The position numbers and the translations under genes were made by a program. From assembly GCA_033439255.1 (NCBI GenBank), contig CM065880.1, positions 806,001 through 870,000 on the forward strand: a stretch of 64,000 bases of DNA, read 5' to 3'. Source of the stretch: Hericium rajendrae. Taxonomy: Eukaryota; Basidiomycota; Agaricomycetes; Russulales; Hericiaceae. The notes beneath the pieces were generated by a model. It saw only the letters and a list, made by a program, of their open reading frames with translations. It made no database searches and had not been told where the DNA came from. Below are positions 35,706 to 64,000 of the stretch, piece after piece. The first letter of the stretch is position 1. Each line of letters starts with the position of its first letter.

Positions 35706-37376
35706 GGCGATATATGCGAAGGACGACGTCGCGAGTTCTGTGACAATGGGAGATCTTGTTATTTCGATGTGAGTCTTATATACATAATGCGCAAGTGTTA
35801 ATTTTATGTTAATTGGTCTTATTCATTATGTTTATGGTACTGTTTTATCAACGTGAAACAGTAGTAGATTGTGAGATACGATAGTTGATGGGTGGATTTT
35901 GTCCGAGGACGTAGTAGGGCTTCGAGCTATCCCTATCGCCGAAGCGACTCTCGGCTTAGAAGAGATAGAAATGCAGACTAAAGGTGCATTACATTCATAC
36001 AGATGAGTATGTTTGATATTGGATACATTGAATATTGTTCATTAACTTTGGCCGTTCTAAGGATTTAGGTGTAACATACTAGAAGAGCCTATTCTGCTCA
36101 TTCTTTGCTGTTGTATGTGCATGTATCGAATATGCCTGTTCATTTGTGGGTTCGCTGTTTCCACGCTTATACGATGCTTAGTTTTATTTGGGCAGCAAAC
36201 GTGGGCACACATTCTGTTATTCGAATAACCATTATAGCTGAATTCAGACCGATAGACCAGGTCGCATACGCTCAGCTTCAAAGCTGGTTGAGCCCTCGAT
36301 CGGATATCCTGCGAGCCAGAGTTTGTGAAATGTGCCCTCTCGCAGAGAACTCTGCCTTTCTGATCTACGTCGAGACGTGCAGCTTAAGTCTATTTACCTT
36401 AGCGGGGGAGATCAACTTTGGTTTAGTGTCTAATATCTCACACAGACGTCGATGTTGCTGGGCCAGTAGGCGTCCGGCTTGCGAATAGGGAGCCTAGTGG
36501 AGTCGGTTTTCTTCATCCCCGCCGATCTGCCTCTAGAGGCTATCTTCGGAGCAGGCTCTGTAAGCGCTGACCTGGCGATATGGTCTATCGTTTTGAGTTC
36601 AGCTGTACGTGTGCAACCTCTTACTCTCTATAGATCTTATCGTTGCTGACCACAGTCCTTTCGTATCAACGATCACGCTGGGCTGAGTTTTTGGCTCTCG
36701 ATGAGGAAGGCATAGTCTCTATGTGCGTATTGTCATTTATTTCTGTTTATTAACAAGAGTCAAAGTCGGATCGAAGCTGGTTTGCCACGGTTAGGGTAGG
36801 TAATCTCTAAGACAATATCCGATGCAATCTATGAAGCTGATATTGTTTATGTATTGAAGTGTATATTTTGCGAAATAAAATGAGACGAGAATGACGTCGA
36901 TCAGTCTTATCTCCTGGGTCTCGGTCACCGCGACGGGACTCAGTATACTGACAGTAAATATATAGAGATATAGTAGAACTTGTGGGACTGCTTCATGGCG
37001 TAAGTAAACCCATGCTAACTCGTTCGCGTTACAATCGCGGGGTAGCGGCGTGCGTGGGCTCCGAGTGTCAGAGGTCGTCTGTTCATGTGGACGGGAAAAT
37101 CGGGAATATTAATGGGGTGCGCATGTTACTGTTATTCGGAATTCGTTGGACGCATGGCTAAACAATTATGACCGAATGTATTGTTTTTAGGAGCTTCTAC
37201 TGGAACATCGAAGTTGTGATGCTGGGATCTGTGCTTCGAGAAGTGAATGGCTTTGTTCGATTTCGATCCTATACGTGTCTGATGACTCTAGTCCTAGCTG
37301 TGATTCAAGAATGATTAACGCGACGACCGACGGAGCGTAACTGGAAATACCGTTCGGGAAGGACCACACAATACAT
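35706..37376. other. Gene-poor stretch
   Basis: A+T-rich intergenic DNA with no supported ORF, RNA gene or repeat apart from a TATATAGAGATATAG run near 36959. The promoter of the 35.7-34.5 kb gene should lie just above 35705. Confidence 0.4.
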
Positions 37377-37735
37377 TGACTTTCGCCGCAACCTACGGGC
37401 CAGACAAAAGTGGCCTAAGGCCGTAAGTTACGGACTGGTCAAAGCCAGCTGGAATCACCGTTTTTGGTCCGTAAGCCACGAACCAGCTGGATTTGGGAAT
37501 AGACCGTAGGTTACGGGTCGGCTTGCATAGATATGTACCGCAGTTTACGGTGCAGCTCGGTCACCCATATTTAATGCCTCGCAAACTACGGCCCAGCTCA
37601 ACTGGCCTCGTCCCTGTCCGGATTCACCAGCCCGGTCTCGGACCACTGCATGCACATTCGGACTCGGACTCGGACTCGGATTCGGACTTATATTATTCGG
37701 ACTAGGGTTCGGATTCGGACTCAGAATTTCAGATT
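37377..37735. repeat. Degenerate palindromic tandem repeats and a CGGACT microsatellite
   Basis: From 37421 to 37600 there are five degenerate units of about 35-45 bp with the core CCGTAA-GTTACGG or CCG(C/T)A(A/G)NTTACGG followed by an ACCAGCTGG-like block. They are followed at about 37660-37735 by imperfect (GGACTC)n and GGATTC repeats. The core is itself palindromic. This could be the subterminal region of a DNA transposon next to the Zn-cluster gene. Confidence 0.5.
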
Positions 37736-37982: not shown

Positions 37983-40900
37983 CTACGCACTCTCGACCTG
38001 GATCCTTGTGACGTGTGCCACCTGGTCCTTCAACGTGTTCTGGTCCACCTGGAGGTTTCGCATCTGGCCCTGCAGCACAACGTAGTCCTCCTCCAGGCGC
38101 TGCTGCCCCAAACTGTTGTCACGTGCGTGAGTCTTGATGAGCCCTCGGAGCTTGCACACTTCCTCCTTGAGGTCATCAACCTGGCTTTGGAGAGACTGCG
38201 CCGTTGACCATGAGCGTTGTGCGAGGTCCCGAATTGAGTGCAAGCTCACATCACTGGTCAGAGTGACACGACTATTAGAGCTGTTCTTGGCGCCTGGCAA
38301 TCCTCTAGCTGCAGACGGACTACCCTCTCGGTCCGGGTGATGTGGGGGCAGCGTGCGGGGTTTCTTCCCCACAGGAGGTGCAGCAGGAATTGGTTCTGCT
38401 CCATCGTCGTCCGTGACAACATATTCCGCGGACTTCGGAGGGCCTAGAAATATGGTTAATGAGCCCCCATACTCTCGGCGATGGAGTGGATTACCTTTAC
38501 GTTTCCGTCCCGAGACGTTGGTAGCTCGTTCTGCCGCTTGCTCCCCGGCTTCCCGCTCCCCGGCTTCTCCGTCGGAACCTCTCTTGCCTGTTCTACGGGT
38601 CTTGCCCCACCCACCTGCCAAGGGACACTTAGCCCGGCGTTTCCAACACCACCAGCATGCTCCATTCGAATTTTCAGACCGTATGCATCGAGTACCCTTT
38701 CGACTACAGGGGGAACAAGGTGGGGACTGAATGAAGACTTTAGCATGCACATCTGAAAAAACTGAAGTTGCTACCATTGGCTACAGTAGCAATCTGTAGT
38801 CTACGGTAGCTACCTGTAGATCCTATAGTACCTGTAGTACTCGTAGGAAACCCCCCTTCTACGGTGGCTTCTGTAGTGACCTGTAGTGAGGATCTTTCTA
38901 CTGTAGTAACCAAACATGTTATAGTAGTTCTATGAACTTAAGCATAGACTACTAATGTTAGCAGTTTATTTCACACAATTTTAATAAATCAGATCATTCA
39001 ATATTCTCATTGTTGTATTAACTACAAAAAAACTAAGTACTCTAATCTATACTATTACAACCCATCTATGTATATAAGGGGGGCATGCAAGGGTGCAGGG
39101 TGCAGGCATGTAGATGTGCAGGTAAGCATGTGGGCAGGCAGGCATGTGGGTGGGTGGGCAAGCATATGAGCGGGTGAGCAGGCAAGCGGGTGAGCGAGCA
39201 AGCAAGTGCGGGTGAGCAGGCAAGTGGGTGAGCGGGTGAGCAAGTGAGCAGGTGGGCAGATGGACAAGTGAGTAGATAGATGGGTGGGCAAGCATGTGGG
39301 TGGGCAGGTAGACGTACACATCAGTACTGAAGCTTCTAAGATACAAACAAATTTACTTACCTTTTATGTTCTTGTTGCCACCTCTTGCACCCAACTGGCT
39401 TGAAAAGAAATGAGAAGCCAAGAAAAACAAGACTTACAATGATATAAGAAAAAAAAAAGAAAGAGAAGAAAAAAGAGGTGAGGAGAGAGAGTGAGGAGAG
39501 AGTGAGGAAGAGTGGTAAAGACGACGCGCATTGCTGGCAAGTCCTGAGGCCAAACAACACCAAAGGCAGAAATCAGATTGCCATATTTGGCAATCTGGTT
39601 TCTGCCCCCTTGCAGAATACGTTGTAAGTTACACTACTTACAACTTTTTTTAAAACATCTAGTAATGCTAGTTCTACACCAACTTATGTTTACTTTGTAC
39701 TGGCAAAAATAAGATTGCTATATTTGGCAATCTGTCTTCCTTAGTTGCATGTGTCGCAGCTGAAAGGGGCGTGGGAGAGTGTCCGGGTCCCCCTGACAGA
39801 TCTCCCTTTCTCTTCTACAAAAATCAATTCTTATCCGATTAGCACGTACCTAGTACCGTTCGAACCGTGTGATTCGTCTCTTTCGAACGGTGCCCTATAC
39901 GATGTGATACGTTGAATATTGAAGGCACTATAGCCCGAACACTATGGGTGACCTTTAGTAGGTACAAAAAGTGGGATAGTGCCTTGAATACTGCACGCAC
40001 CACAAAACTGATTTGACCATCTGAAAGCTCTAATCAATAGCGTTCGGACAAGCCCTCATGCCCCATGATAGGGGCAGAACTCGTACCATAGGGGCAAAAT
40101 CTCTGAAAATGAAGGTCAAATATTGTTTCAGGCCTATCTCAACAACGCGAGAACACACCATGAACGTTTCAACTGTTCTGGAAAGCGGTTGATCGTAGCT
40201 TTCGAACGGTGTCATGCATGACCCGATCTGAGAACTTCTAAAAATCGCCCCTCTAAACAAGAATGGGCTGTATCATAGCGAAGAATGGACGTACCGCAGA
40301 CGTTTTTGGCGCGTTGGAAAGAGCCCATCAAGAGCTTTCAAACGAGCCATCATGCGACCTGGTAGCTGCAAACCTGGAGCCACTAGAATGAAATCTCTGA
40401 AACTGTCAGCAAAAACATGTTTCTGGAATATTGTTACAATGAGGAAACACACCGGAGATGTGTTTAGTGTTCCAGAAAGCGGTGATCCGTACCTTTCGAA
40501 CGCATGTACATACATGCAAATCGGTGTACTTCTTGGTACACAACATCGAAATCTAGGATATAAGATAGTTAGTTAGAGCGTCAATCACACATACCTTTTC
40601 ATAACCAAACTTCCTAGAAGACGTTAATCAAGATAATTTGAATACACTCACATTTTTTCTTAACTTGAGCTTTGCTTGCCCTAGGACATAAATGCAGAGT
40701 GGGGAACTGTAAGAGGCGCGCTACATGTGTATGTGACATGTCACTTGTGGTGACAGTACATGAGTCATCAAAGAAGTCAGACTATATGATAAACACAAGT
40801 ACAGCTTTATTTTTCAGAAACATTCAAGGAATATAATGAATTGAAAATATAGTATAACTACAGAGAGCTACAGAAGGCTACCGTAGAATGAGATGAGCTA

Positions 40901-42102
40901 CAGTATCTGCCGGAGAACACCGGTAGTTACCATCAGTGCTTCTATAGGCACATCAGTGCTTCTGTAGGCACATCACCTGATTTAGCGAAACTCTGGTTTT
41001 TCCTGATGCAGGAACAAACAAGAGAAAGGCAGATATGCTTACCACTACAGGTAGGTCGTCTGGGGGCCCATCGGGCATAGGACTCCCTTTACCCTTCTTT
41101 CCCGCTCCGTTACCTGCAGGAGGATCCTGCACGTCCGGAGAGCTCTCCGCTTCGGCGTGATGGGGTCGGTCCAGTTCCTGATCCCCCGGACTGCCTGCCA
41201 TAACCACATCGAGCTGTTCATTATGTGCGACTTGGAGGCCGGACTGGACTGGTGGAGCCGGCGCAGTCAGGGCCAGGGTCGTTGGAGCTCCAGAGGGAAT
41301 CTGGGCTGGGATGCGGCGGTCTTCTGTAAATGTGATCGAAGATCCGGATGGCCTCTGCTCGTTTCTCTCCAGAGGATCATCAGTTGTTGCGCTCTGAGTA
41401 GTGCTTAGTGGTGCCGGATGGGGTGCAGATGTGAAACCGACAGGCTTAACGGCCATTTCAGTCGTTGCTAAGATGGCATGTCCCGCGGATTGTACAGCAG
41501 GGGGTCGGATCGGTCTGCTGGTTGACGCAGCAGGTGTCTTTCCACCGTCAACGGACTCAGCAGACCGCACAGACTCGGTAGGAAGGCGTTCTGTGGCCCC
41601 ACGTGATGTTCCCGGGACTGGGGGGGGGGGAGAGGGCACGGTTGTGTTGTGATCCAAATCTTCTGAAACCCACCAACGCTCTGACAATGGAATTCTCCCC
41701 ACACACTTCGACCAATCATCCCTCCCCTCCGAAAAGGAGTCCACCGTGCCCGCGAAGGTCTTCGGATCCAACAATTTCTTCGCCCTTATGAGACCAACCA
41801 AATTCCTGCCAACACTCTGGATCAGCGGGGGTAATGCGAATGTCTTGTTCTTGTCCATCACTTTGAGCATTTGAATGATGCAAGACGCTGTGTCCTAACA
41901 ACATGACCCCAGTAAGCTAAATGTACAAGCTAAAAGCTAGAACAGAACTTACACATTCTTTCAACAATCGGCGGTGCCACCACTCCCGGCGCTTGTTCGA
42001 CATCGGCTGAATCTCAATGGCCTTCTTCAAAGCGACCAGGGCACACCCCACACGGGCCTCGTGCAATTGAAGGTTGCCGAGGAGTTCTGAAGTAGTAGTC
42101 AT
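37983..42102 (-). CDS. Zn2Cys6-spaced cysteine-cluster protein, copy A, with a large transposon-bearing intron
   Basis: Exon 1 starts at the ATG at 42102 (MTTTSELLGNLQLHEARVGC), chosen because the homologous copy B starts at the same place. After KKAIEIQ...RRLLKEC a GTAAGT intron leads to DTASCIIQMLKVMDKN...SERWWVSEDLDHN and a long Pro/Ser-rich linker ending PVV (41050). The next exon, about 2.3 kb away, resumes in phase at SPPCSPCSRKGTRC and gives the cluster C-x2-C-x6-C-x9-C-x2-C-x6-C (38620-38722), then KRKGNPLHRREYGG, a basic linker and a C-terminal coiled coil (AQSLQSQVDDLKEEVCKLRG). The cysteine spacing equals that of fungal Gal4-type regulators, but the basic residues between cysteines differ. 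A DNA- or protein-binding nuclear role is inferred only. It is divergent from a small coiled-coil gene at 42.5 kb. Confidence 0.65.
39080..39312. repeat. GGTG/AGCA-type low-complexity tandem array
   Basis: About 230 bp of short imperfect units such as GGTGAGCAGGCAAGCGGGTG and GTGGGTGGGCAAGCATGTG. On the minus strand it gives a spurious Cys-Pro-Thr-Leu-His ORF. Simple-sequence expansion is the likely origin. Confidence 0.65.
39565..39606. repeat. Long hairpin (18-bp stem, 6-base loop)
   Basis: GGCAGAAATCAGATTGCC, loop ATATTT, then GGCAATCTGGTTTCTGCC: 17 of 18 stem pairs. A shorter version of the same palindrome (AGATTGC TATATT TGGCAATCT) lies at 39712-39733. Confidence 0.7.
40020..40520. repeat. 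Two diverged tandem units of about 280 bp
   Basis: Both units contain, in order, CATCATG/CCTCATGCC, ATCTCTGAAA, a T-rich AATATTGTT-like block, AACACAC, (C/G)AGAAAGCGGT or GGAAAGCGGT, and CTTTCGAACG. A partial third unit with CTTTCGAACGG begins near 39875. Translated minus-strand shadows are also similar (FESYDQPLS versus FERYGSPLS), which shows the duplication rather than coding. Confidence 0.55.
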
Positions 42103-43653: not shown

Positions 43654-45629
43654 CTAATCCTCTGCTGTCAACGGAGACTGCACAGAGTCCCATTCCACAT
43701 CCGCAAGGGTTCGCAAGGCCTCCACCTGGCTGACTGTGATTGCACAGTTCTGCATAACGAGAGTGAGCCGTGTCCCAAGCGCTGCATGGCGATAGGCCAG
43801 GGATTGCTTGAGAATGTAGCCAACAGCGTAAGAAGGACGAGGGGCAAAGAATTCACGGTTTTCAATCCTCGGATGCTCAGTGTCAAAATCCACTTCTGAA
43901 AAATGGATTTGGGTGACATTTCTGAAGAGATGCGGGAAGTCCGGGGTATCGTTTCTTGGACTTCATCGTGCTCTAGCTTCGGCATGTACGAGCAGGGGGC
44001 AGCAAGTGCCATGCATAATGTGCGGCCAACGTCGCCCTTGACGGATACAGTGTGAATATTGGTGTAACTGGCAAAATGGGAGATCCAGTTGCTTGACCGC
44101 AGGTTCTCGTGGCCGGACTTGCGGGCCCAGTTTAAACCGTGATCCTTGCCAGACTCCACGATCAGGTGTCGGATGGAGACCTTAGTCTCTGGGCTTGGAC
44201 AATGGTCCAAGGGCTCGAGGAGGTGCCTGTGCAATACTCCCTCAGACCTCCCGCGGGTGACATGGGCAACCACACGTGCGCACGGGATATCTGCACTGCC
44301 AGGGGGATAGTCCATGTCTTGAGGGAGAGGGACATCGGCCCAGAAAGACAGGTCCCAGGACTCAGATGACAAGACAGGCTTGACTCGCATCGTCATAGGA
44401 TAAGGTGCAACGTGGTTATTGAGAAAATGGGTCACGGTGGAAAAATTGTCCACCTCAGGGGCATAGCCTAGGATGAAGACATCGCATAAGGGAGGTATGT
44501 GGACATGCTGGATGACATTGCCGATGTGGAGGAATGAATTTGATTCACATGTGAAGTGACGGAGACGAGTCAGTTGGACCATGGGCACGTCCGGAGGGGG
44601 GTCAGGCTGGGAAGGGAAGCAGTGAGACATGAACAATGTCTCTAGCCCACACATTTGCGATAAAGCAAGGATGAGATCGAGAAAGGCCTTCTCGGGGGAT
44701 GGACCAGCAGCAGCGGGTGGCTCATGCTCGGATTCAGCATAGGGAATGCCATCATGTTCAGAATCAATGTTCATAACGTCGAAAATTGACGTGAAGTGAT
44801 TATTTATGTGCAATTTGGTGAGGTTGCGCATGAATGATGCGGACCATGTCGGGACAAGGTAATGTAGCGTCATCATGCGGAGCGAAGGCGCTTGCTCTTC
44901 AAAGAGGTCTGCGGGGAGGATACCCACACGGCCGCTCCGTAACCGGACTGCAAGAAATACCGATTCCAAGATCGGCGCCGGATGGACCAGGGATCGAATC
45001 AGGTTGAAGGAACCTGAGATAAAGTTGACAAGGGAAAGATGGCGGATGCGACGCATGCATTGCGCCAGGAGTGCAACGGTATGCGGGGTGGGGATGTTAT
45101 GCCTCCAATATACATCCCTGTAGGACAGGGGCAGTGAGTGGGAGCGTTCCACCAGGGCTTCTCTCCAGGGCTGAGATAATCCCGTGCAAATATTTGTCCA
45201 CAGGCTGCCATCCTGTAATGCGGCGACTCGGAGAAAGGTGCAGGTATGCGTGATGTGAAGCCACCCCAGGCCTTTCATGGATGCTGGCTCGTTAGCAGCG
45301 CAGAAGTGCAAGATACGATTTTGCAATTCAATGGGGATGCAGGCAAGAGGTGATAGTGTATTTCGCTTGGTGCAGATGGCAGTGCGGTCCATCCTCAGTC
45401 TTCGGATGACGTCCCCCATGCCATGCGGGTCGTTGCCACAGGCGCAGACAGCAACGAGCTCTCCATCTACATTTTTTATTAATTTGTCCGGCCGACGTCG
45501 CTCTCGCTCGATATCATGCGGGTCGGTGTGCGTGGGGATCCTGTAACAGGGATGTGAGACACTACCATTCATGGACAACGGATCGAGAGCAGACTTGCAT
45601 TGTACCGTCAGACATGGTGTTCTTTTCAA
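43654..45629 (-). pseudogene. F-box/LRR-type protein, single frame shift near the 3' end
   Basis: A long uninterrupted minus-strand frame. After a Cys/basic N-terminus (KSALDPLSMNGSVSH, VAVCACGNDPHG) the F-box reads LACIPIELQNRILHFCAANE...GWLHITHTCTFLRVAALQDGSLWTNI, followed by LRR-like repeats (LSLVNFISGSFNLIRSLVHP, LETLFMSHCF, LTRLRHFTCESN). F-box proteins recruit substrates to SCF ubiquitin ligases, and such F-box/LRR genes are expanded in agaricomycetes. Around 43950-43980 the reading changes: the frame that continues as DFPHLFRNVTQIHFSEVDFD and runs to a stop at 43654 is clearly the LRR continuation, whereas the original frame gives unrelated sequence. So there is one indel or an assembly error. 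Otherwise the gene is intact. Confidence 0.72.
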
Positions 45630-46750: not shown

Positions 46751-47019
46751 GATCAGCACGAAGAGCGAGTGGGTTGGGAGACGGGAAGCAGCGGGTGGAA
46801 GAGATAGCAGTGAAGAGAAAGAGGAGGAACAGGGACATATTTATACTACTCACGAGCAGGCGACTGCGAAATGACCTGAGGTCGACACCCGGAATGTCCG
46901 TCTGCAGCTTGCAGGAAGAAGGGTGCAAAGGTGTTGGAAATCCGCCCGGACCAACAGCCCAGACGGCAATGATCTTCAACGTGAAACGTCTACATGGGAC
47001 CAGTTGTCCTGAGCAAGAA

Positions 47020-47178
47020 CACATGAACAGTTGTCGCCTACACACGGCGAACAAGTGCCACATAGAACAGTTGTCGCCTATACACGGCGAACAAGCGCCA
47101 CATAGAACAGTTGTCGCCTAAATGCACGGCGAACAAGCGCCACATAGACCAATTCTAGCCTATACACGGCGAATAAGC
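47020..47178 (+). repeat. Minisatellite, four units of about 40 bp
   Basis: Unit core ACATAGAACAGTTGTCGCCT followed by ATACACGGCGAACAAGCGCC. Units begin at 47021, 47060, 47100 and 47142; the third has two extra bases and the last is more diverged. A partial unit (CTACATGGGACCAGTTGTCC) precedes them. Confidence 0.75.
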
Positions 47179-47189
47179 ATGATGTAGAC

Positions 47190-48630
47190 GACACGAGGCA
47201 GACAACCTTGCTCGCATCTTTGGAGCATGTTCAGCATGCATTTTTTCGCCGCTTATTAGGTCTCTCTGCCCGGTCGACGCTCGCCTTCCTCTATACCGAG
47301 ACAAGTTTGGAACCGCTGCGCTATCGCCGCGTGCAACTCCTCCTCCTCCCATTCGTTCACTACGCCTCGCTGCAGCCGCCGGACCGCCTCGTATGCCATG
47401 CATTCCGCGCATTTCTCCACTTGGCGGCTGATGGCGTGCCCGGATGGGCTTCAGACGTTATTTATGTCCTGCACACTCTGCCTCTCCCGGTACACGTCAT
47501 GCTGTCCGTTATTGACAGCAAAGCAAATACCAGACATTCTCGCACGTGTTACCGCTTCCATGCGCACACATTGGTCTGCTGTCATCAACGCTTCCCCTCG
47601 TGCGATGCTTTTGAATGGACGGACGGAGATTGTACATCACGGTGAGTTGCCCAGCCAGCCGGTTTTCCATTTCAGGCCTTATCTCCAGGTCCGAATCCCA
47701 CCACACCGACTAGCCCTCACACGCCTCCTCTTCACCGACCACCATCTGGCTTGCAAGGACCTGCGCCGTCCTTCTGCACATCAGCCTCGCATCCTGCGAT
47801 GCTGACGCCTTTGTCGCTTCTGTAAAGCAGCTGTAGAATCCCCGAACATGCCTTGTTGGAATGCTGTGCTCACCCGTCACTTTGCTCCCTCCGCACTTCC
47901 TTCCTCGAACGTGCCTCTCAGTTCCTGGGTCCAACGCGCTCTCGTACGCTGTTCGGGTCTCACGATACACGCTCGATCACAAAGAGCCTTGTGCGCGAGC
48001 GGGCATCCTCGACATGCTTGCGAAGTTCACCTTCGATGTGCTCGAGGTCTTTGCTGCCTCGCCCGTGTTCATTCATCCTTCTGCACAAGTTTCGCATGTG
48101 GTATGTCTCTGTTTGCTCGTGCGCTGGCCGGTCCCTCACACTCTTGTCGTGTCTCTATGGGACGTTGTCTAGGATTGACCCGGTCTCATAGCCACGAGGT
48201 TCTCACGCGCATGGGTTTACCCTCGCGGGAGGTTTTCCTGCCGCGGGCTCATCCCCGCTCGGTACTGACCCGGTTTTGCCATGGCGTCGGTTTTGGTCTC
48301 ATCTGAGGTTTTCCTTTGCATGGATCTTTCATCGGGTCGTGATTCATGTGTCTTGTGGCGGCCTGGTTTACCCACACACAGGTTTTTCCCTCAAAAAGAG
48401 ATTTTCCTGGTGTGGGTTTTTCATCAGTTCACCCGCTACACTGCTCTCTCTGTTCAATTCTGTGTGTTTGTCTTTTCTACTTTGTCGTCTATGTGCGTCA
48501 TCCTCGACAGCGATCGGAGTAGTTACATGACTTGAGTGTACATAGCGTAGTTTGTGCCTGACTATGTAGTATGAACACTGCTCTGTTCCGGAATGGGACC
48601 ACTGCGGAATAAACCTTCCTTTCTTCCTTC
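47190..48630 (+). mobile_element. 5'-truncated non-LTR retrotransposon (LINE), decayed
   Basis: The plus strand encodes the region downstream of a LINE reverse transcriptase: LEHVQHAFFRRLLGLSARST, LAFLYTETSLEPLRYRR, VPGWASDVIYVLHTLPLP, and later LCRFCKAAVESPEHALLECC...LRTSFLERA, the zinc-finger-like CxxC-x-H-x-C tail common to fungal LINEs. The blocks are in different frames, so it is inactive. The catalytic RT part and the endonuclease are missing, as expected from 5' truncation at insertion. The 3' end near 48600-48630 has AATAAACC and a CTTTCTTCC pyrimidine run. Confidence 0.7.
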
Positions 48631-48908
48631 CTTCATCACTCAAGCCGCGGGCTGCGGCTTTGGTATGGCCATCGACCATCTCATTGTCATGAACACTGAC
48701 ATGTCCTGGAACTCAGAGCAGAGTGATGCGGAGCAAGCGAATCAATACCAGTGCATTGTACTCTCATGACTGTGTTATTCGAAAGTACTCTAAGCCTATG
48801 CCGTAGGAACAAATAGCACATCATCGCAGACCGGTTGCCCATGCAGTTCACAGAAATGCAGCAGACATTGTCCAAGGGCACCAAAACCTGGCTCTTGGAT
48901 CAGAAGGC

Positions 48909-51741
48909 TCACCGACGTGCAGCAGCCTTCTTTTTCTCCGCAGTCTCCTGTCTCTTCTTGTAAGCAGCGGCATTCTTTTCCCGTTGGGCCGTCTGCTCTG
49001 GAATGATCCTACGACAACAATGATTTTCGAATTTCCACCAGTCAATGACATGGCATACTCACATTGCCATCTTCTTAGTGGGCACCCGTGTGCGGCCGCT
49101 CCGCTTGCTGGGAGAGCCAAGCAGGGCTTCAGACAAGGCGGCTGGAGGGGTGCAGCCCGGGACGACTGATGCTGTGACTTTTGCTTCTCAGGTGCAGCTG
49201 GGGCATCCGATGGTGATTGTACCTTTCCCCTCTTCTCGATCTGAGCCCGAGCAGGCAGAGCCTGTTTGCGAATTCTCTTGCTGGGACCAGCAGATGGTGC
49301 AGCTGCAGGCAACATATTCTTTCCAGTGGTTTCAGAGTATGCTGTGCGAGCATTCTCTAGATCCTCCTTCATGGTAATGCATTGCGGTTCAACATACTTT
49401 CCGAGGTAACGGAACGGAATTGTAGAGTTCTGAACATAGTCCGGGACCCCTGCATCAGGCCGACTTTCATCATCAGAGTCCGATGCACCCATCTGTGCAG
49501 TTTCAAGATCCCGGAGCAGTTGCCCATACGCCAAGGCCACCTCCATCAGTGCTGGTTTGCTCAAGATGTCTCCATCGCAATTACGCCAAGGCGTCTTGGG
49601 GTCCAATAGCCACTGTATCTCAGACTTGGGATTCACATTGGCATGAACACGGCGCGGCAACCATGGCCTTGGATAGTCAAATGTAGCCCAGTCAGGATGG
49701 TCTGGGTCTGCTGTAGTGCGATGTCCCTGCTGAAGGTATGATCAAATAACCAACATGACATATATTTTGGGACAGCGTACCCTGCACAATGAGATCTCCA
49801 GCACGAGGTCTTGATACAACTGCAGTCCAGAAAGACCGCTGAGGAAGGCAAACTTGGCTTTTTCATTTTTTGCCGAGTTTCCTGGTGTTTTCAGCGGACT
49901 GCCATCTGAGTCCAGACTGACTTGTGGTACAATCTGAGCCTTGTTTTTGGACTTATTGTTCGAAGGCATGGTCCCCGCACGCCGTTCCCTAAGCTGTTGC
50001 AAAGCCTTAGCTTTCCCAGCATTTGTCACTCGTAGACTGGTTTCCAATGGCGTAACGTCTTCGACATCATCCACATCCTCCTCTTCAGATCCGAAAGAGC
50101 CCAGGTCAAAAAACTCTCCATGTTCGTCGTAACCATTATGATCCTTTGTCCGAGCATTTTTGCGACCCGAGGGAATGCCAACCATCTCGACATCCTTCTC
50201 AGCTTCCGCGTCCGAGACATCCTGAGGGTTGGGCACATCCCGGTCTGCAAACCGCGCTTGAATTTCCTTCCGTCGACGAATCCGGACAGTCTTTCCTCCC
50301 CCGGTGTTGCTCTCACTGTCGGATGGAATCTCCATCACAGGGGTCCACTCGCCCTTCACGACGACTGCCTTGAACTCTAATACAGTGAGGCCATCGGACT
50401 CCCGGTTCTGCCAGAATTCGATGATGGGTTTGAGTTCCTGCCTATTAATGCGTGATGGATCTTCCCAAACGTATCCCGTAGGAAGGTACATCGGGTCAAT
50501 GTAGTTCTCGAAGCCGTCAGCTTTTATCTTCGCCCAGGGAATTGCCGATGCCTTCGGATTGGCGCGTGCTGATGAATTAATGCATTAGCCGGGCCAAGCA
50601 TGTTCATCACAGAAAATACACACCGTAATGAAAGGTTAGAAACTCCCTTATCAGCGATATCAACAAATCTGGCGTGTATTCTTCGAAATCCGCAGGTATT
50701 GTAACACCTCCATCTGGATTGTAGATCAACTGTAGAGTTGGTTTCCTGGACTTCTTGACTGCGTGGCCCGGTTCATTGGAATCATCCCCGGGACCTTCTG
50801 GAGTCAGCACCGCAGACCAAAGCATGAAATTCTGCATACCATATAGAGCTTCGGCATAGGATGTCCAGGCCGACATCATTGGCTGCTCATCCCAGTCCTT
50901 CACTGCTTCTGCGAGGGTTGGCCGTCCGAGGTCACCGTTGTAATCGAACCTGGATTCATTCAATATCACTCGACTATGGAAAAGGTTAGATCATACTTCC
51001 GGACCACCGCCGTCCCCTCTTCGTCTAGCCATGTCCCCAGGACCACTACGGACATCCCAAGATGTGACCGCATTTGTGTGGCGAACGACTTGGTGTACTC
51101 GCCAGCATGCTTAGATGCTTGTCTGCATAGAGACGACATGAGGACAGATACTGGACATACAGCAACAGTACGGACCTGGCCTGCACATCAGGAGGAGCCT
51201 CCGTCTTTGTCCACAATGCAGCATACTCCTCATATTGGGTCATCTTGTCCGGAGTAAGGTTGTTCATCACCTGACTCACTGCCCGGGAGTAGATCGCAAT
51301 GTGGGCTTTGCTTCCAGGCTGCGCACCACCAGATAGTACTTTGGCATGCTCCATGATGGCATCGCGTTCCATGTGCTGGACTACGGCCTTGAGTGTCCAT
51401 GTTCAGACATACTTAAATGAGTCCGCCTTCCGAAGCCGGTGCCTGCCATGTTTTAGCAGCCACTCGTGTATCAACTATATAGCGAAAGTGAGTTAGCAGC
51501 GACAGCTCATCAACAGATGCAGGCATACCCGCTAGACCCTGGTCAACTCAAGACCCCTGTATGAAAAACGGCCAAAGAATTGACCACCAGGTGCCTTGAG
51601 GTCCGTAATGATACGACGTCGTCCAGCCTTCCCGGTCTCCTTAAAGGCCTTCAACTGTGTTTTGAGAAAGTCAATCTCGTCCTCCGACAGATCAGTCTTG
51701 ACAGACTTGGACTTTTTCTGTGGAAGGGGACCTCTCGGCAT
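48909..51741 (-). CDS. Large lysine-rich orphan protein of the KDZ neighbourhood
   Basis: A multi-exon minus-strand gene beginning at the ATG at 51741 (MPRGPLPQKKSKSVKTDLSE). Later exons give LKAVVQHMERDAIMEHAKVL, VSQVMNNLTPDKMTQYEEYA, DWDEQPMMSAWTSYAEALYG, NPKASAIPWAKIKADG...YLPTGYVWEDPSRINRQELK, a long acidic/basic linker, and PDWATFDYPRPWLPRRVHAN...PKSEIQWLLDPKTPW. The last exon joins after a GTGAGT donor and ends KKRQETAEKKKAAARR at 48909. The minus frame that runs further to 48848 is a shadow. No domain recognised; the pattern resembles large hypothetical proteins frequent in agaricomycete genomes (memory, unverified). It is divergent from the TET/JBP gene, whose coding part begins within 200 bp, suggesting shared regulation. 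Confidence 0.58.
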
Positions 51742-51849
51742 TAAATTGAAAGTAGGAGGGGCGAACTGAGGGAAGGGGCGGAAGAAGGCAAACTGATCAG
51801 CAAATGGATTATAGTGCAGCGGAACGACATGGACTGACTTTTTTTTTGT

Positions 51850-53512
51850 TTTTCATGTACGTCCTCAGACATACGGTCTTCAAAGGTAACCAATATGATC
51901 CGATCTTTGTCCAATGCTGTACAGGCCGAATGAGGAATCCATCACCGGCAATCTCCTGCCGAAGCACATGTGGATAGCCGAATGCTTGGTGACAAACCTC
52001 TGCCACATCAAAGACCGCGACCAACCAGCCTTACTTTCCGCGCTGATCCTCATTTCCGCTCATTCCCCAAGTGAGATGTCCGAAGTCGAAGCAATCTCAA
52101 TCTATCTGAAACACATGTTTCATTGCTATTTGGCTAACCACCAGAAGGTCGACTTTGCCAATCCTGCCCCGATCCCATACTGGATGCTGTCATCCAGCCT
52201 GCACTGCGAGCTGGATTATATTGCCCGGGAGTTGGTTGCTGCTTTTCTAAACCGTAGTATGTGTATCAATTTGAAAATGAGATGATTGAAAACTGATGTA
52301 ACTTCAGTCCGGATGACTTGGGATGCACAGCGTTACGTCAGCCGCATTCCGAAGAAATACACCGGACTCAACTCACCGACAGAAGCATCCCTACACCGGC
52401 GTTACCCGGGCCTAACCTGGGGTACCAACAATACCTCGTGGCCTCTGATTGATGTCCCAATGACGGTCTCGGATACACACACCAATCACCTGGTGTGGTA
52501 CCTACCAGGTGTGCTGTCCCTGGAACGACAGGTGGCAACTCGCATTTGACATCACCCGTCATTGTGTTGATCAATTGCTTGTGCAGGCCATCATGTTCAA
52601 TGCTGCAAAGATCCTCGAGCCCCTCTTCCAAAGGAGCTGGACTGAAATTTACAGAAAGAATGGGCCGACGAATCCAGGACCAGCAGGATCGGGCATTGTC
52701 AAGTCCGCGAAGCAAGCAGCAGGCTCGAGGTCCAAGGGAACGAGGTCCGAAGCCATGAAGTCTCTGACTCGTCATGCTCAAAACCTTTATCATAATCCGG
52801 TAGTCTGCACCTTGCATCCTGGCTTTGTAGATTTGTCCCCAGCATGGTTTGCACTCGGCCATGAGGTATGAGACCCTTCCTTCTATCGTCGATGTAGAAT
52901 TCAGTGTGTACCTGGATTTTGCTGTAGGACACTCACTTTCCCCTCTACACGTCTGTCTCCCTCAAGACCCAGCGGGCAAAAGAATGGCTGCTAGCATTCC
53001 AGGAATCAGGCGCGATCATGAGTGCAATTCTTGGGGTCATATACCCAGAATTACACGAGGCTGGCATATGCACGTTGGAACGGCTCAGAGATATGCCGGA
53101 GTTTCGTGAAGTGATGTGCCACTGGACATCTGCATTTAGTGGTGTCTCGATCATCTCTAACCGGGCCACCATGCCGCATAGAGATATGGGAGGTCGCGCC
53201 GAATGGCCAGATCTCCTGGCGACGATCGGCACATATCCTGATGCAGAACTGCACCTCCAGAATCTCAACCTGAGGTTTGCATACAGGTCCGGGACACTAG
53301 CTGCGGTCTGCTCAAAAATGGTAATCCATGCAGTCCCAGAATGTGAACCGGACAGGGTGTGTTATGCATTTTGGATGAGAGATGCAGTGCACGAGCACAT
53401 GATCGTCAAAGCACCGGACTGGTGCAATGACAGTCAGTTCAACATCCCATCCGAACCCGACGTAACGGACGAGTCATCGCAGACTCACGCATCATTACCT
53501 TTTTCATTGTAA
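51850..53512 (+). CDS. TET/JBP-family 2-oxoglutarate/Fe(II) dioxygenase
   Basis: A plus-strand gene of about five exons. Early exons give LLPKHMWIAECLVTNLCHIK, IPYWMLSSSLHCELDYIARE and RMTWDAQRYVSRIPKKYTGL; a middle one gives WQLAFDITRHCVDQLLVQAI and LYHNPVVCTLHPGFVDLSPA; the last carries the catalytic core. There, SNRATMPHRDMGG holds the H-x-D iron ligands (codons 53177 and 53183), WPDLLATIGTYPDAELHLQN follows, IHAV gives the distal His (53327) and DRVCYAFWMRD the Arg (53354) that would bind 2-oxoglutarate. Family members oxidise 5-methylcytosine (TET) or thymine (JBP) in DNA. Fungal ones are known to be expanded and linked to KDZ transposons. All ligand residues are present, so activity is plausible. 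The N-terminus is uncertain: an in-frame stop lies just before 51902. Confidence 0.8.
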
Positions 53513-53668
53513 TAGCATATTCTTATCCCCGATGCTGTGAGATTCCTTGTGTCCCCACAATCCCCTTCCTCTGCTGTTCCTCCGTCTGCAGTTCTTCAGT
53601 ACCATTTTCTTCAGTTGCTGGCCTGACTTTGCTCCCCCTTCCCAATATCCTCTTTACCGCTTTAATAG

Positions 53669-56600
53669 ATGCCACCCAGAGTGAAGAAAGGCCGTGGCAT
53701 ACGGATCGTCGTGCAAGAAGAACTTGAGACTGGGCGTGGAACACGGAAAGTCAGTCGGCCAGCGGCTCAACCCAAGCAAACCAAGGAGGCCGATGATGCC
53801 TCATCAGACCGGAATGGAAGCGGAAAGTGTGCCCGTGCTGACAGAAAGGGTGATTCGTCACGGACTACCCACCAAGGATCTACAGCCAAGGCCGATGGAG
53901 CTGCACACGTCTCCCCAGAAGCTCCGGTCATGACCGAGCAAGACTGGGAGCTGTATCATGCCCAGTCACTTAAACCGCGGAAACCCCGTGTACGTCTCCA
54001 GCTTTGGAATTCATTTCTGTCCTAATATCATTCATGTAGACAGACCGAACATGGCTGACCGAATGGACAGACACCGAAGATGACTACATTCACACGATTC
54101 TTCAGGGTGAGGCCCGAGAGGACACATGCGCCACAGTGCAATGCAAACGGAAACCCGAATGGCGGTGCAAGGACTGCTTCTCCAGTCCGCAATTCTGCGC
54201 AAAGTGTTGTAAAAGGTGCCACAGTCATTTGCCATTCCACCGTGTTCAAAAATGGACCGGTACGCATTATGAGCCGGCTTGGCTCAGTGAACTCGGCGTT
54301 CTCATATATCTGGGACATGCTGGCTCACGCTGTCCGTCTATTGCTGGGAATGGCCATGATTCAGATAGCGCAGAATCCAGGATGACTGTTTCTTCCGGGA
54401 TGACTCCTCGACCATCCAGCCATTCTATTCAAGACCCGAACCATTCATTCACAGCATTCCGTTCACCATCAAGTTCTTCCTCCCGAGGCCCTTCACCCCC
54501 TGCCACGAATGACATCCTATCAGGTTCAGAGGATGGGTACTCAGAGATCGGTAATTCAGAAGTTGTGTCACGGGCTGCTACGACTTGTCCGCCGTCTCCA
54601 AGTGAATCGACTACCACCAGCAACACCAGCAGGTCACATATCCGGTCAGTCTTAGAGACCGTCCATGTTGGTAGAGGCCACCGGAAGGAGAAAGAAGGGA
54701 CCATTTCTACTGTGACTTCCCAGGAACCCCACATTGATGACTCTGACACTGATACTCCAGCCACATCCATGCATTTACTCCCCAATCGTCGCATCACTAG
54801 TACTCATGGAGACACAGGGGATATTGGACGATCAGCCGGGCTGGTGTCCGATGTACTTTCAGAATCTGAGGCTGAGTCACTACCAGCTGCCTCCAAATCC
54901 ATGCGCGGCCGCCTCATCACACGACCTCATCACAGCCGACAACCATCCCCATCACCACCCACACCCTTATCATCAACCCGAAGGATGACTACACGCTCAC
55001 ATAATGGAGCTCAGTCCAACGACGACCACCGAGGACCGGGGCCCAATTGTAGGACACCAAGTCCGGTGCCTACCATCCACTTTGACGAGTTCCAACGTGC
55101 TTCTGCCTACATGGCGAAGACTGAACAGGAAGCCATAGAATGTGGTGTCTTCCAGAAGGACCGGCCATGTACGCTAGCTGCGAGCCTCCTTGATGACGAT
55201 GATTATGTCCATGAGGATGATGGAGACACCAATTGGGAGCATGTCAACGAGGAAGATACCTTGGCGGAGGCTGAACATCAGGCCCGGAGTCAGAGGCTCC
55301 ATGCTAGCGAAGATACACCGGATCATATCCTGACCATTGTTGATCGGTCCGGAGTGCACGAATTAGGAGTGGTGAACTGCTATTGCTCTACTGATGAACC
55401 ACTGCACCGTCAACTCCTTCGGAGCAATCTATTTCCAGCATCATTCCGTCGGCCCCAGACTGCGTTCACATTCCAGGTGTTAGAAGACTGTCGTTTGGAC
55501 AATCTTGAATGCAAAACCTCATTTTTCCAGTTCTTCGGAAAGCTCCGTCGACTAACCAACCCTGCCTTTCCGGATTCGGTTCCTGTTGCGTTGCATGCCT
55601 TAACAGTTCTCTCATTGGCACTAACACATTCTCATAGGACCGTTATCGGGAACTTATGCAGTCTCTGCGGGTATGGAGGCACCTGCAGTATATGCGATGG
55701 CATGGTTTTGGTCATCGCACTGACATGCCAGGAAATGGAGACTTGGCATTATTCTGTCCCACATGTCCTCAACCAGGAGAAAACATGCTGCCTGAAGACC
55801 GACTGTGAGTCCATTATTTCCCATCCAGTTCTCTTCGTTGACTGCTGGTTTTCAGTGACCTCGATGCACGTATACAAATGCAGGATGGCAACTTTACTGC
55901 CCAGCTGGAGAAGATGAGAAGACCGGACAACAATTTCGCTTTGAGCGATGGCACCGGGTTCATGGTCGAGAGCAAAAGATACCATCAACATCTCCGCAGC
56001 AATCGGGAGGTCAGGCAAGAGGTGCAACTAAGTAGCATATTGCATTATGTGGTCGGTAACCGTTTTGCCTGCAACAGCGATCCACATGCAATGACCACCG
56101 CGCGGTGAATCAAGCCAATGCCCGGAAGAGTAATTTATACTCATCCGGTTTGGGGTCCGCTGCCTGCATGCATGGGGCATTTATACCACACACGACAGTG
56201 GACTTTCAAAAGGGTGAACGGTAGGTGTATCTCTCTGTCAGTCCACAAAGATAATGTTGTGCTGACAGATAGTCTGCAGTCAAGTCAATATGGATTACTC
56301 CGTCTGCCAAGGGTTGGGGTACAAGTCGCAAGGTCTGACTACAGCGAGACTCTTGTATGACATCGCTTGCCAGTGGTTTGTCAATTTCTACTCACGTGTG
56401 GACCGGAGCGAATTTTTGGAACTACCTCCGGACATGGAAATTATATCCGGTATTGGTCTTTTCCACATCCACGGTCACCGGCAAGAATGCCTTGCTCGGT
56501 TTTCACCAACGTTCATTCCGGGTGCACGCCAGGTAGATGGGGAGATATTGGAGACATTGTGGGCTCCTTTGAACGAGATCTCACGAAGTACGAGAGGGAT

Positions 56601-58181
56601 GTCTATCTCTCACAGGAGGGAGATTTTGGATGATCACATGAATGACTCAAATTGGAAGAAGCTTGTACACAGCGGTATGCATGTTTCGATCATTGTATGA
56701 GCTCCCTGACCAGTACTGAAAGTCGGGAGCAGTGAAGTCATTGTGCAAGAAGTGGAAGAAGTCAGCAACAGGTCTCGAGATTGCTGAGACAGCATTCGCA
56801 GATTTTGATCACACAGTGCCTGACGACGTCCATGATGGATGGAAGAAGATAGAAGAGACTGCACAGAAGAACCGCTTACGGGATATAAAAGCAATGGACG
56901 TATATGATCTGCAGATCGACGGACGTATGCTCCCAGCCATCCTCAGCCTGGAGAACAATTGCTAATGTCATAGACAGTACCAGGAAAAGCGGAAATGGAA
57001 AACCGACTTGTGGCTGCAGTGGAGTCTGACAGGCTTCGTGGTTGCACTGCATGGATTCACTCGGGACTCAAGATAGAAGAGGCTCAGTGCGTTGTCCGAT
57101 TTACCATTCCTTTATTCTGACGGAGCCAATGGTCATGCTAGGCTACAGCTGGCAGCATACGTCCGAAGCGTTGGTAAAACTGCTACATTAAACCAGCAGA
57201 ACACCATCGCAGAATGACGACGACGGCTGCAGACCCAAATTGATCAGTTTGAACGGCGGAGTCTGCCTTACATGTCCGAAGGCGAGGATTGGATCCCCGG
57301 ATTCACTATCGGACGGATGATCGATGACGGCGCCGAATACGATGAACTATGGGAGGACGTCCGCACTGAATATTCGAGACCTCTCATCGATGACGATGCA
57401 GCAATTCCGCCAGAGCGCGTTGCCCTTCCATTGCCCTCCACTGTGGGAAAGGCACTGGCCACTACTCATGGACTTCACGGCGTGTTGGAACAGGAAATTG
57501 ACCTTCGGATCGGGCAAATGAACGATGCACTTAGTCAGCTCCGTATAGCTCTCAGCGAGAAGGCATTCCAGTTCCGGATGAAGGTGCGGGCAGCCCGCGG
57601 ATCACAACGAAAGCGGACAAGGGCTTGGGCAGATATTGAGACTACGGACAAGGTTGTCCAACAGCAGTGCCGTGTCTACAACCGAGCACGATGTGCTCTA
57701 AACAGCCTTGGGCTTGCAGATTCTGACACATTGAAGACTTATAAGGTCTTGCACCGGTCGGACTTACGGGCGCAGACATTTGTCATTGACTCAAGCATGC
57801 AGGGATCTCGTAATGAACCTCTTTCATGGTTCTGGAGACTGGGACGGAAAGGCGAGAATGACAGTAAATGGACAATGGAATGTGGGTCCGGTCTGCTGCA
57901 TTCAACATGATCCCTGTCACTGATGGAGAATTGTAGTTTATCGTGTTCACTGGCTACGGTCTTGGGCCCAGATGAAGCAATGGCGTGCGGAGCGGGAAGC
58001 CCTTCCAAGGGAGATGGCACGAATGATCAATTACTTCACCAAGAGGGCAGAACGGTGGGGAAAATGGAAGGCCAACAACACAGATCCAGGGCACCAAAGC
58101 TATGCCTCCAGACAGATGGCACTCTGGATTAGCATGGCCAATCAGGCAGAGAGTGCATTTGCAGAGGCATTGGCACAATAG
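53669..58181 (+). CDS. KDZ-family transposase with CxC2-like cysteine cluster; one in-frame TGA
   Basis: Eight or more exons join in phase. Exon 1 has a basic MPPRVKKGRGIR start. Exon 2 (from about 54041) has the CxC2 cluster: CATVQCKRKPEWRCKDC...CAKCCKRCHSHLPFHRVQKW. After a long Ser/Thr-rich linker come DRYRELMQSLRVWRHLQYMR, CPTCPQPGENM, the first catalytic region MQDGNFTAQLEKMRRPDNN, then CNDHRAVNQANARKS, VDFQKGERQVNMDYS, LLYDIACQW (second Asp) and GARQVDGEILETLWAPLNEI (Glu), HRREILDDHM, and a C-terminal FYRVHWLRSWAQMKQWR. This is an RNase H-fold DNA transposase. At 57215-57217 TGA interrupts TIAE*RRRLQTQ in the correct frame. Everything else is open, so the gene was lost very recently, is read through, or the stop is a sequence error. 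It ends at 58181. Confidence 0.88.
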
Positions 58182-58477: not shown

Positions 58478-60434
58478 TCACACAAATTCCAGGTCTGCTG
58501 AACTCGCCCGAGACATCTCCGCAAGTAGTGCTTGCAGATCAACCTCTGACGGGGGTTTGGCGGCCTGAATGCGCCCTTGTGTGGGTTCTTTCAGGATCTC
58601 TACAAGCAATGTTAGAAGGAAGGGGAATGATATGTACACACATACCGACAATGACCTTGTTAGCCGCAGGCTTCCTGGGACGGGATGGGCCGGCAACGCT
58701 CGAGGAGCGGGAGGCAGCTGGATGCTGTGATTTGGATATGGATCCTGAATGCCTCCCCCGGTGTTGTGCTGCATTCCGGCCCTACGATTCTGAGGTGTGT
58801 TGTGGCTGCAACGCTCCCGACGGATGTCACAACCGATACAGATATTTGGATGGCCCTCTTGGGTGGCACAGCGGTCACCGTGTTTCACGCAGCCATTGCA
58901 TCGAAATGGCTATCCAGAACTCAACTGTCAGGAGGGGGGATCATCGGACAAGGAGATCCACCCACAAAAGGAATCTCGGTTAGGTACGGGTTGTACCAAG
59001 ATTTCTTACTGGGCTGGCGCCGCCGATTATACAGGCCAAATTTGGGCGGCGGAGATGGTTTTCGGAGTACTTCGCGTGGCCGAAGACCAGACCGCTGCAT
59101 TGAACGACCCACCGCGACCGCCCTAGATGCGAATGTCGATGCAGATTGTGATGCGGGAACAACATCGGGATGCAGAACCTGACTTTCCGTGGAACTGGCC
59201 AATGAATGATAGGGCAGCTTGTGAACCATGCGTGACCGAGGAGGGCCAATCTTGGCACCGGGGGGGAGGCCTGACTGGCTTTCCTCGGTTTCCTCGCTCT
59301 CTTCGCCTGAACAAGCACATCGTCAGTAGACTGATTATATGGGGAAACTGTAAGGGATACATGCGGGCAGGGAGCATACCCAGGTCGGACAATGACTGCA
59401 TTGCTGGAGCGTCACAGGCTGGTCTGGTGCATCAGGAACCTTCAAAACTTTCTGATGGACCCTGCAGAGTCTGATCAACTGCAAGACCTGATCCAGCTGC
59501 AGGCTCTAATTAGAGATCAATTTCTGATCAGAGCTTTTATATTTTGAAATCAATAACTATTGGCAGATATAGTAGTCATCCAACTCTAATCATTAGATGC
59601 AACAAACTTTTCAATATCTAAAATTTACATAAATCTGATCAGTTCTGATCAATCTGTGAGCATTCTGCATTGATACTTTTTTGAATCTTGAGGTCAAATA
59701 TTCTGCAGCAAGCTGAGAGTAGCTGATATTGTCTGAGAGTATCTGATGTGTCTGATGCAACTGCTGCAGGTCATGCAGACACTGTCAGATGTCTCGCAGG
59801 TCAAACAGAAAGTTTTGAAGGTTCCTGATGTGGGGGGAGTCATTCCCTGATTTGTCTCATCCCCATTGCTGCACCACGAATTGACAAACCAATCGACGAG
59901 GGAGTCCGGAGTCGAATAGCGGACGGCATCCTGTGCAGGGACAAGTAATTCCGCTATCAGGGACAATGTCAGGCTACATCCTTGCAGATTACAATAGCGA
60001 GCTTACGGTTCTCCCACCAGCGCAGGCCCAAATCCATATTTTGCGCCTTGACGTTCAAATTGCGATCCTGAGGATCAAGAAAGCTTGCGAGCTGGTGTAG
60101 ATCGAATAAGCCCTCCGGGTCCGTCTGGCTCTGCAAGAAGTTGAGGTAGCGGGCTGTGTGGCGCATATACCTGGGGGTCAGCATCATCATTTCCCTGACA
60201 CCTGCCTCCATGGCCGACTCCCTGATCCTCTTTGCTGAGACCTGAACATAGTTTAGCAACGTGGAGACCAGTGAATTGAAAAGAGCATACCATTTCTTTT
60301 GTGAATTCTGTCTGCCAGGCACGCCGTGCATGCTCTGACAACCGAACAGGTGCTCTGCTAGCAGCATGAAGTGCGATCCCAACACGCACCGACAAGATCA
60401 AGTAGCTGGCATTCAGAACATTGACACTGTCCAT
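58478..60434 (-). CDS. Zn2Cys6-spaced cysteine-cluster protein, copy B
   Basis: Start at the ATG at 60434 (MDSVNVLNASYLILSVRVGI), matching copy A; an upstream in-frame ATG at about 60596 is the alternative. Exons: to TEFTKEM, then VSAKRIRESAMEAGVREMMM to LGLRWWEN, then PELLVPAQDAVRYSTPDSLV to MTPPT. After an inserted foldback repeat come STDDVLVQAKRARKPRKA and the cluster RCNGCVKHGDRC...ICIGCDIRRERC (58803-58904), spacing C-x2-C-x6-C-x9-C-x2-C-x6-C, identical to copy A. The tail is basic (SRPRKPAANKVIV) and joins across a 46-bp intron to EILKEPTQGRIQAAK, ending SADLEFV at 58478. Similarity to copy A covers the N-terminus (WWENR versus WWVSED context) and the cluster. Role unknown; nuclear DNA-binding is only inferred. 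It converges with the transposase gene. Confidence 0.62.
59430..59830. repeat. Foldback insertion with 25-bp perfect inverted ends
   Basis: CATCAGGAACCTTCAAAACT+TTCTG at 59430-59454 is the exact reverse complement of 59806-59830. Weaker similarity continues about 50 bp further inward (CTGCAG, TGATC and CAACTGC blocks). The 350-bp centre is A+T-rich and non-coding. It lies between two exons of the Zn-cluster gene copy B. MITE-like; no target duplication is obvious. Confidence 0.65.
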
Positions 60435-62845: not shown

Positions 62846-63099
62846 ATGTCAACCGGATCAAGTTTCCAGATCTTGAGGCAAGTCCGGCGGGATCTTTCAT
62901 CCATCAATGTTTGGATTACTGACTACTCGCATCCCCTTCCAGGATTCCTGTACACCCTGACCCAGTTGATATAGAACAGCAGCGAGCTGCCATTGACGAG
63001 GAGCTAAACCAGCTACTCCTCCTCACCCTCGATGCTCGTGCCCGGCGAAACAGATTATCACCCCTGATCCGCATCCCCACCGAAGTGTGCACGCGCTGA
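62846..63099 (+). pseudogene. F-box protein N-terminal fragment
   Basis: The ATG at 62846 (MSTGSSFQILRQVRRDLSSI) is followed, after a probable short intron ending CCTTCCAG at 62939, by IPVHPDPVDIEQQRAAIDEE, then LNQLLLLTLDARARRNRLSP and LIRIPTEV. This is the typical entrance of agaricomycete F-box proteins: a short coiled coil, then xxLSPLxRIPxEV. A TGA follows at 63097 and no LRR part can be found downstream, so the gene is truncated. Confidence 0.5.
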
Positions 63100-64000
63100 T
63101 ACGCCTCAAGCTGTGTTCAGCAACGTTAGACCTCATCTCACCATCTTCCATGCAGTTCCCCTTCACTTCCATCCAGCTTCCAGCTCCTCACCCACCAACC
63201 TCGCTCAGAGCAGTGATGTCCCTCATCTCAGGAGTTGTCAGCTACTGCAGGCCTCACCGAGGTTTCCTCAAGTTCGCTCCAGGTCGTCCTCAGCGGTTTT
63301 GGTGAGCCAATCAGGTTGCTGGCATTATGGTACTGGGTCTGTGTTGTACAGGATGCCTGGATGCCGCCTTTTGATGGTTTCGGACCATAGATGTACCATA
63401 GAGCAGCCGAGTCCGAGATCGCCCGAGACCGCCAAGGGCGAGTTTCTTACTTGTATGGTAGACAGAGTCCCAGCTTCGAATAGAACCCCCCAGTGCACCT
63501 TTCCCCCTCAGAGCTCAGACCTCAGAAGTCTCTCTCACTGTTGTTCTCATCGTTCCCCGGACTTTAGACAAGTTCGCCCTCTTTAGGCCAGTCCGCCCGC
63601 AGCGTCGTTCGTCAGATTCAGTCATATCAGCCGCTTTTCAGTCCTTTTCTCTAGGATTAGTCTGTCGTATCGGAGACCCGTGTGTCTCGTCGTTCTCCTT
63701 GTCATTCTACAGCCGTTCCTCGTCCTTCCCAGCCGCTTATCACCAGATCGCCTCAGACTCGCCCTTAGCGAACCGGTCGCTCCATTGTTCCTGCTGCAGT
63801 GACCCTCAGCTGCCCTCACCTCACTCCTCACTTGAGATACTTGGTCCCCTCGCACCCCCCGGTACTCTGTTGGTTTTGGTTTTGGCTGCCGCCTCCATTC
63901 CCAGGGTCCACACATCATTTTGGAGCCCACCGCGAGGGTTCCATACTCAAAACAGTGAGGGGTGTACCCAGGCGTAGCCTCTATCAGGTCAAGACTGCCA
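63100..64000. other. Unassigned sequence at the right edge
   Basis: Pyrimidine-rich, with many CGTC/TCGTC blocks on the plus strand. Frames are short and without motifs. It could be the LTR or untranslated part of a retroelement continuing past the window, but neither a TG...CA border nor a primer-binding site was identified. Confidence 0.3.

Follow-up and report, generated by a model that had tools for sequence, protein, structure and literature searches.

Gene content of the locus

The window, by which we mean the whole 64,000-bp stretch of DNA analysed, comprises bases 806001–870000 of contig C3 in a genome of 46.8 Mb and 19 contigs. A TET/JBP dioxygenase gene and a KDZ transposase gene lie side by side in its right half, within a set of features that are listed here by window position.

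37358–37364, no strand: left 7-bp target site duplication, GAAGGAC; its partner follows the right end at C3:886150, outside the window
37365–63096, + strand: the part inside the window of a putative TET+ Kyakuja-type element, from shared ends and copy comparison
37377–37710, no strand: left arm of a 334-bp subterminal inverted repeat (element positions 13–346), ~98% identical to the right arm
38750–41005, no strand: insertion of ~2.26 kb with CATC..GATG ends, absent from other copies that cover the site; not part of the element
43671–45572, − strand: F-box-like cargo gene, single exon, 634 aa with the first ATG taken as the start
48851–51852, − strand: divergently transcribed orphan gene, several ORF pieces, lysine-rich N terminus
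51914–53512, + strand: TET/JBP dioxygenase gene, open four-exon model of 476 aa, Tet_JBP match at 52982–53380
53669–58181, + strand: KDZ transposase gene, CxC2 cluster at 55318–55560, best KDZ exon at 56281–56652, C-terminal in-frame stop in the window copy
59430–59829, no strand: MITE of ~400 bp, not belonging to the element; inverted repeats of 32 bp, ends CATCA..TGATG
63097–64000, no strand: start of a nested LTR-retroelement-like repeat, seen elsewhere in the genome as ~820-bp repeats ~4.3 kb apart; not part of the element

The TET/JBP gene was modelled as four exons (51914–52256, 52308–52531, 52587–52865 and 52928–53512) with an open reading frame, and in a Pfam profile search the last exon scored 66.7 bits, above the Tet_JBP cut-off of 34.9. 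The spliced protein matches Coprinopsis CcTET (PDB 7vpn) with an E value of 7e-32. Counted along the 7vpn alignment, the CcTET metal ligands His326, Asp328 and His376 (PMC11040006) have identical counterparts in the window protein (HxD...H), as do the pocket residues Gly331 and Asp337, whose significance in AG-type TET/JBP proteins has been described (PMC12730594, PMC11040006). Rather than scoring below threshold with its ligands unaligned, the protein thus exceeds the cut-off and carries the ligand residues claimed for it in the original prediction. CcTET of Coprinopsis cinerea (PDB 7vpn, 7w5p, 8jkk) oxidises 5mC (PMC11040006). The window protein is a distant homologue that shares its enzyme family and pocket residues, and by sequence it is an AG-type TET/JBP dioxygenase with putative 5mC/6mA oxidation.

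For the KDZ gene the scores are 86 bits against CxC2 (cut-off 27) and 94 bits against KDZ (cut-off 26.6), so that all three Pfam profiles, Tet_JBP included, are above cut-off. Its ATG lies 156 bp beyond the TET stop on the same strand, and both genes were found where they had been placed, with TET directly upstream of KDZ. Their description as a near-intact pair is fair to the extent that TET is open; the C-terminal part of the window KDZ gene contains an in-frame stop, which recurs in 3 of 7 covering copies (window included), is absent from the other 4, and may lie in an intron. A suspected KDZ frameshift was dropped, the sole indel being a 1-base deletion in copy C3b on comparison with seven other copies of all or part of the TET-KDZ region.

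The divergent lysine-rich orphan gene proposed upstream of the pair is present at 48851–51852 (− strand). Neither it nor the other ORF pieces gave a Pfam match above cut-off, and one ORF in the right part of the element had weak coiled-coil matches. Among the ORFs scanned, 21 pieces in the part of the element inside the window and 5 larger ones in its right part, no further transposase domain was found and no tyrosine recombinase appeared. We take the product of 43671–45572 to resemble mushroom F-box proteins; it has no Pfam match, and structure prediction from a two-sequence alignment gave a mean pLDDT of 29.5. A paralogue of this F-box-like gene (41% in alignment) lies near the opposite end of the element, and relatives at 30–39% identity occur outside the element on contigs C13, C8, C3 and C10. 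Such relatives are clustered at C8:541016–829750, around the element insertions at C8:678803 and C8:763526.

Element boundaries, copies and target duplications

Many copies ~99% similar to the window DNA are present across the genome. All 17 copies with a left end begin with CA at the base matching window position 37365, with differing flanks, and all 16 right ends examined terminate in TG. Within the window, position 63096 was considered as the right end and rejected; other copies continue past it, so it marks a nested insertion point, and for that reason no convincing terminal inverted repeats are found between 37365 and 63096. The true right end was located by following a copy on contig C8, and lies at C8:710886. 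The 334-bp inverted repeats are subterminal, and the outermost 12 bp of the two ends match only partially in inverted orientation.

The insertion-free copy at C8:678803–710886 is 32,084 bp long and another is 32,079 bp, while the remaining 11 of 13 paired copies span 32.7–83.7 kb, apparently because of nested insertions such as are directly visible in the window copy. The latter occupies C3:843365–886150 (42,786 bp including nested insertions) and extends beyond the window end. The gene pair is therefore where the original prediction had located it, but the element is far larger than that interval, running from 37365 past the end of the window.

Perfect 7-bp target duplications flank 12 of the 14 two-ended copies; one further copy has a single mismatch (C2a) and one has none (C3b). 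The 12 include an unusual copy on contig C16 (C16:833511–939851), in which a left end on the + strand and a right end on the − strand lie 90 kb apart and share the duplication AATATAC, with TET and KDZ separated by 79 kb; this configuration suggests a later large inversion. TET and CxC2 matches are found inside every copy with paired ends (13/13), although in C2b the TET match is partial and below cut-off. TET and KDZ lie in one mobile unit with CA..TG ends.

Three observations concern DNA nested in the copies. The insertions at 59430–59829 and 38750–41005 have apparent 2–3-bp duplications and ends that resemble the PlavakaB ends of PMC12730594. The ~400-bp MITE has a CpG observed/expected ratio of 0.07. 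The 83.7-kb copy (C1:122541–206252) contains a second TET-CxC2-KDZ set belonging to another group, apparently nested (TET at C1:138455).

Short relatives sharing the ends

End patterns were searched allowing 3 mismatches, with the reversed pattern as control. In the form of the 32-kb family, the left-end pattern was found 17 times, 14 of them without mismatch and 3 with one; a variant form was found 14 times, and the reversed control gave none. For the right-end pattern there were 42 occurrences (30 exact), with 8 for the control. Of the 14 left ends of the variant form, ten are matched by an exact right end at a distance of 2.1–2.3 kb on the same strand, one by such an end at 27.3 kb, and three have none near. 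Short spans bearing both ends would be expected of elements mobilised in trans, and from their end patterns and spacing the ten 2.1–2.3-kb elements are probably short, non-autonomous and mobilised in this way. The 27.3-kb span (C9:540451–567754), which combines a variant left end with an exact right end, contains a weak Tet_JBP match below cut-off at C9:549710 and no listed CxC2 match; it is perhaps the larger partner of the 2.2-kb elements.

TET-KDZ pairing across the genome

A profile search of the whole genome found 46 Tet_JBP matches, 38 of them above cut-off. A CxC2 match follows downstream, on the same strand and no more than 6 kb away, for 36 of the 46, and for 34 of the 38 above cut-off. 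When 40 TET matches were placed at random a mean of 0.5 were paired, and the observed pairing exceeds chance. In this one fungal genome the two genes are thus adjacent again and again, contrary to the possibility that they are never neighbours elsewhere. The matches above cut-off without a nearby same-strand CxC2 are the apparently inverted C16 copy, C1:1705501, C12:2182408 and C5:1141088. Viewed from the transposase side, only 36 of 124 CxC2 matches have TET upstream, so most KDZ genes in the genome do without it.

Further groups in this genome, distinguished by score and spacing, have the TET-CxC2-KDZ order as well. In one of these, family A (L003–L008), a TET ~39–41% identical to the window TET is followed by CxC2-KDZ, and a divergent lysine-rich ORF upstream of TET has a weak likeness to the window orphan (E ~0.1). 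Separately, five weak Tet_JBP matches in 129-aa frames (C2:33965, C2:3866436, C4:1122998, C4:348987 and C9:549710) have no CxC2 within 10 kb, and perhaps represent another TET type on other transposons.

Probable methylation footprint and selection

Variants were counted among 17 copies of uneven coverage, at 21,919 positions covered by at least 4 copies, with insertions and the tandem-repeat stretch at 47000–47200 omitted. CpG transitions make up 591 of the 752 variants. Transitions affect 0.242 of CpG sites; for other G/C sites the fraction is 0.012, and for A/T sites 0.0027. The CpG observed/expected ratio is 0.77 over 37365–63096 (insertions included) versus 0.91–1.19 in four stretches of window 1–37364. 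Part of this comparison region looks Helitron-like: at 17297–25266, ORFs of 1135, 276, 316 and 999 aa presumably correspond to a Helitron-type N-terminal part and a Pif1-type helicase.

The CpG-transition rate is even along the element. In 1-kb bins with data it ranges from 0.020 to 0.044 per site and copy, with 0.027 in the bin of the TET promoter, and the bins reveal neither a protected CpG stretch nor a dip near that promoter. Family A, which also carries TET, shows CpG transitions at 55 of 67 variants among six copies. For a pair of the 2.26-kb insertions, which lack TET, 15 of 64 differences are CpG transitions at 93% identity, a pair that is older and so not age-matched to the element copies. 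The genome profile search gave five C5-methyltransferase domain matches above cut-off at four loci, which together with the excess of CpG transitions makes a methylated substrate likely. Because CpG transitions are both dominant and evenly spread, the copies appear to be methylated despite carrying TET. We read the variant pattern as CpG methylation followed by deamination, although errors of repair after TET oxidation might leave an identical change.

Nonsynonymous and synonymous CpG changes did not differ at p 0.05 in 16 ORF pieces, the piece at 37986–38748 being left out (out of frame, 15 stops). The TET gene, with 17/92 nonsynonymous and 4/58 synonymous changes (p 0.055), tends in the direction opposite to constraint. 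No purifying selection on TET or KDZ was detected among the copies, which therefore seem to decay neutrally after insertion.

Relation to known elements

That TET/JBP and KDZ genes are linked in mushrooms, as the original prediction stated, is indeed published. Iyer et al. (2014, PNAS) reportedly described TET/JBP genes next to KDZ genes and their expansion in mushrooms; those neighbourhoods concern gene adjacency, to which element boundaries, target duplications and copies are added here. TET+ Kyakuja of Agaricomycetes have CA..TG ends and 7-bp duplications, and methylation escape has been proposed for them (Kojima 2025, PMC12730594). Like Kyakuja-1_LB, Kyakuja-2_LB and others in that report, the window element unites KDZ and an AG-type TET/JBP in one transposon, and it has the ends, the duplication length and the CcTET-like pocket residues in common with them. 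The counterpoint is that two Laccaria Kyakuja families are described there as having no TIRs, whereas the window element has long subterminal inverted repeats of 334 bp. The element thus fits TET+ Kyakuja in ends, duplications and gene content, the inverted repeats excepted, an assignment based on these characters. The ~32-kb length, the F-box-like cargo and the short derivatives do not appear in the sections of PMC12730594 consulted.

Zisupton has 8-bp target duplications (PMC12730594), as opposed to 7 bp here. The KDZ/Plavaka elements of Marasmius oreades are mushroom KDZ-group elements with a characterised TIR motif, and in the portion of PMC8290104 consulted TET linkage appears only as a reference title; given that motif, the inverted repeats described here may not be new. 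Cryptococcus KDZ1-3 are also basidiomycete KDZ elements, with TIRs of 139–241 bp, but they are 9–11 kb long, have CxC1 rather than CxC2 and 4–8-bp duplications, and in the sections of PMC12810828 at hand TET is not named as an element gene. As a giant cargo-carrying fungal element, the window element resembles the Starships of Pezizomycotina (PMC12134995), which differ in having a tyrosine recombinase captain, of which there is none among the window-element ORFs scanned. A literature search that reached few subscription papers and no supplements found no earlier report of a giant cargo-carrying KDZ element. Apparently unusual features are the length of the element, its 334-bp subterminal inverted repeats, the two F-box-like genes among its cargo and the ten short elements with which it shares both ends.

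Interpretation

We put a probability of roughly 0.75 on the gene pair being the core of one ~32-kb KDZ transposon of the Kyakuja kind, which carries an AG-type TET/JBP gene, a divergent orphan and cargo including two F-box-like genes. The common CA..TG ends, the 7-bp duplications at different sites and the presence of TET and CxC2 in all paired copies argue for a single unit, whose KDZ protein would recognise the element ends and move it. Were the pair instead a compact Kyakuja sitting inside a bigger element that another protein moves, this would accommodate both a length ~3 times that of the Cryptococcus KDZ elements and the encoded proteins without Pfam match. That arrangement is very improbable, as the TET-KDZ block is never missing from a copy with paired ends, those ends and the duplication length are the ones reported for Kyakuja, and the ORFs scanned hold no other transposase domain. 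That TET serves the host and adjoins KDZ incidentally we find scarcely credible: the unpaired TET loci on C1, C12 and C5 could be host genes, but the window gene is multicopy and sits inside an element with target duplications.

The role of TET within this single transposon is a separate matter. The original prediction had TET, with its ligands, upstream of KDZ in one element, and the shared ends and target duplications sustain that part; its further proposal, that the enzyme helps the element escape silencing, is weakened by the even CpG transitions. Oxidation of 5mC by CcTET, and the methylation escape suggested in PMC12730594, lend some plausibility to a TET that keeps each copy methylation-free in cis. 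We nevertheless judge protection of this kind improbable in view of the predominance of CpG transitions, their evenness through the TET promoter and the same pattern in TET+ family A. A captured passenger with no role in the life of the element would be consistent with the want of purifying selection among copies and with the minority of CxC2 matches that have TET upstream; yet neutral decay after insertion is expected of any transposon, and further groups, of which family A was examined, have the TET-CxC2-KDZ order too, so that a passenger seems rather unlikely.

We see a roughly even chance that TET made by expressed copies acts in trans, or for a short time around transposition, to oxidise 5-methylcytosine and perhaps 6mA, which CcTET oxidises too. 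Such action would let methylated copies be transcribed or cut, and would not keep each copy methylation-free over time. This is our best guess, drawn from sequence patterns. Reports from Laccaria bear on it in two ways. Oxidised methylcytosine has been linked to transposable-element silencing and gene regulation (PMC8889193), a link that does not favour relief of silencing as the role of TET. Most of the 46 Laccaria TET genes bear oxidised methylcytosine, and expression is detectable for no more than four of them (PMC8889193), which fits mostly silenced copies.

At somewhat less than even odds, and so tentatively, we suggest that some KDZ transposons of mushrooms are giant cargo carriers, the equivalent in basidiomycetes of Starships. 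They would capture genes of host families such as the F-box-like genes, bring their own DNA oxidase to act in trans on the whole family, and mobilise short derivatives that have only the ends in common with them. The target duplications go beyond gene adjacency in placing a TET dioxygenase and a KDZ transposase in one mobile unit. With ~17 copies in graded decay, mutation patterns allow the effect of a transposon-borne DNA oxidase to be read, and the heavy CpG decay makes the idea of methylation escape testable; if TET helps, its action is probably in trans or brief. Should the size and cargo of this element prove general, KDZ elements would provide Basidiomycota with a means of moving genes of host type.
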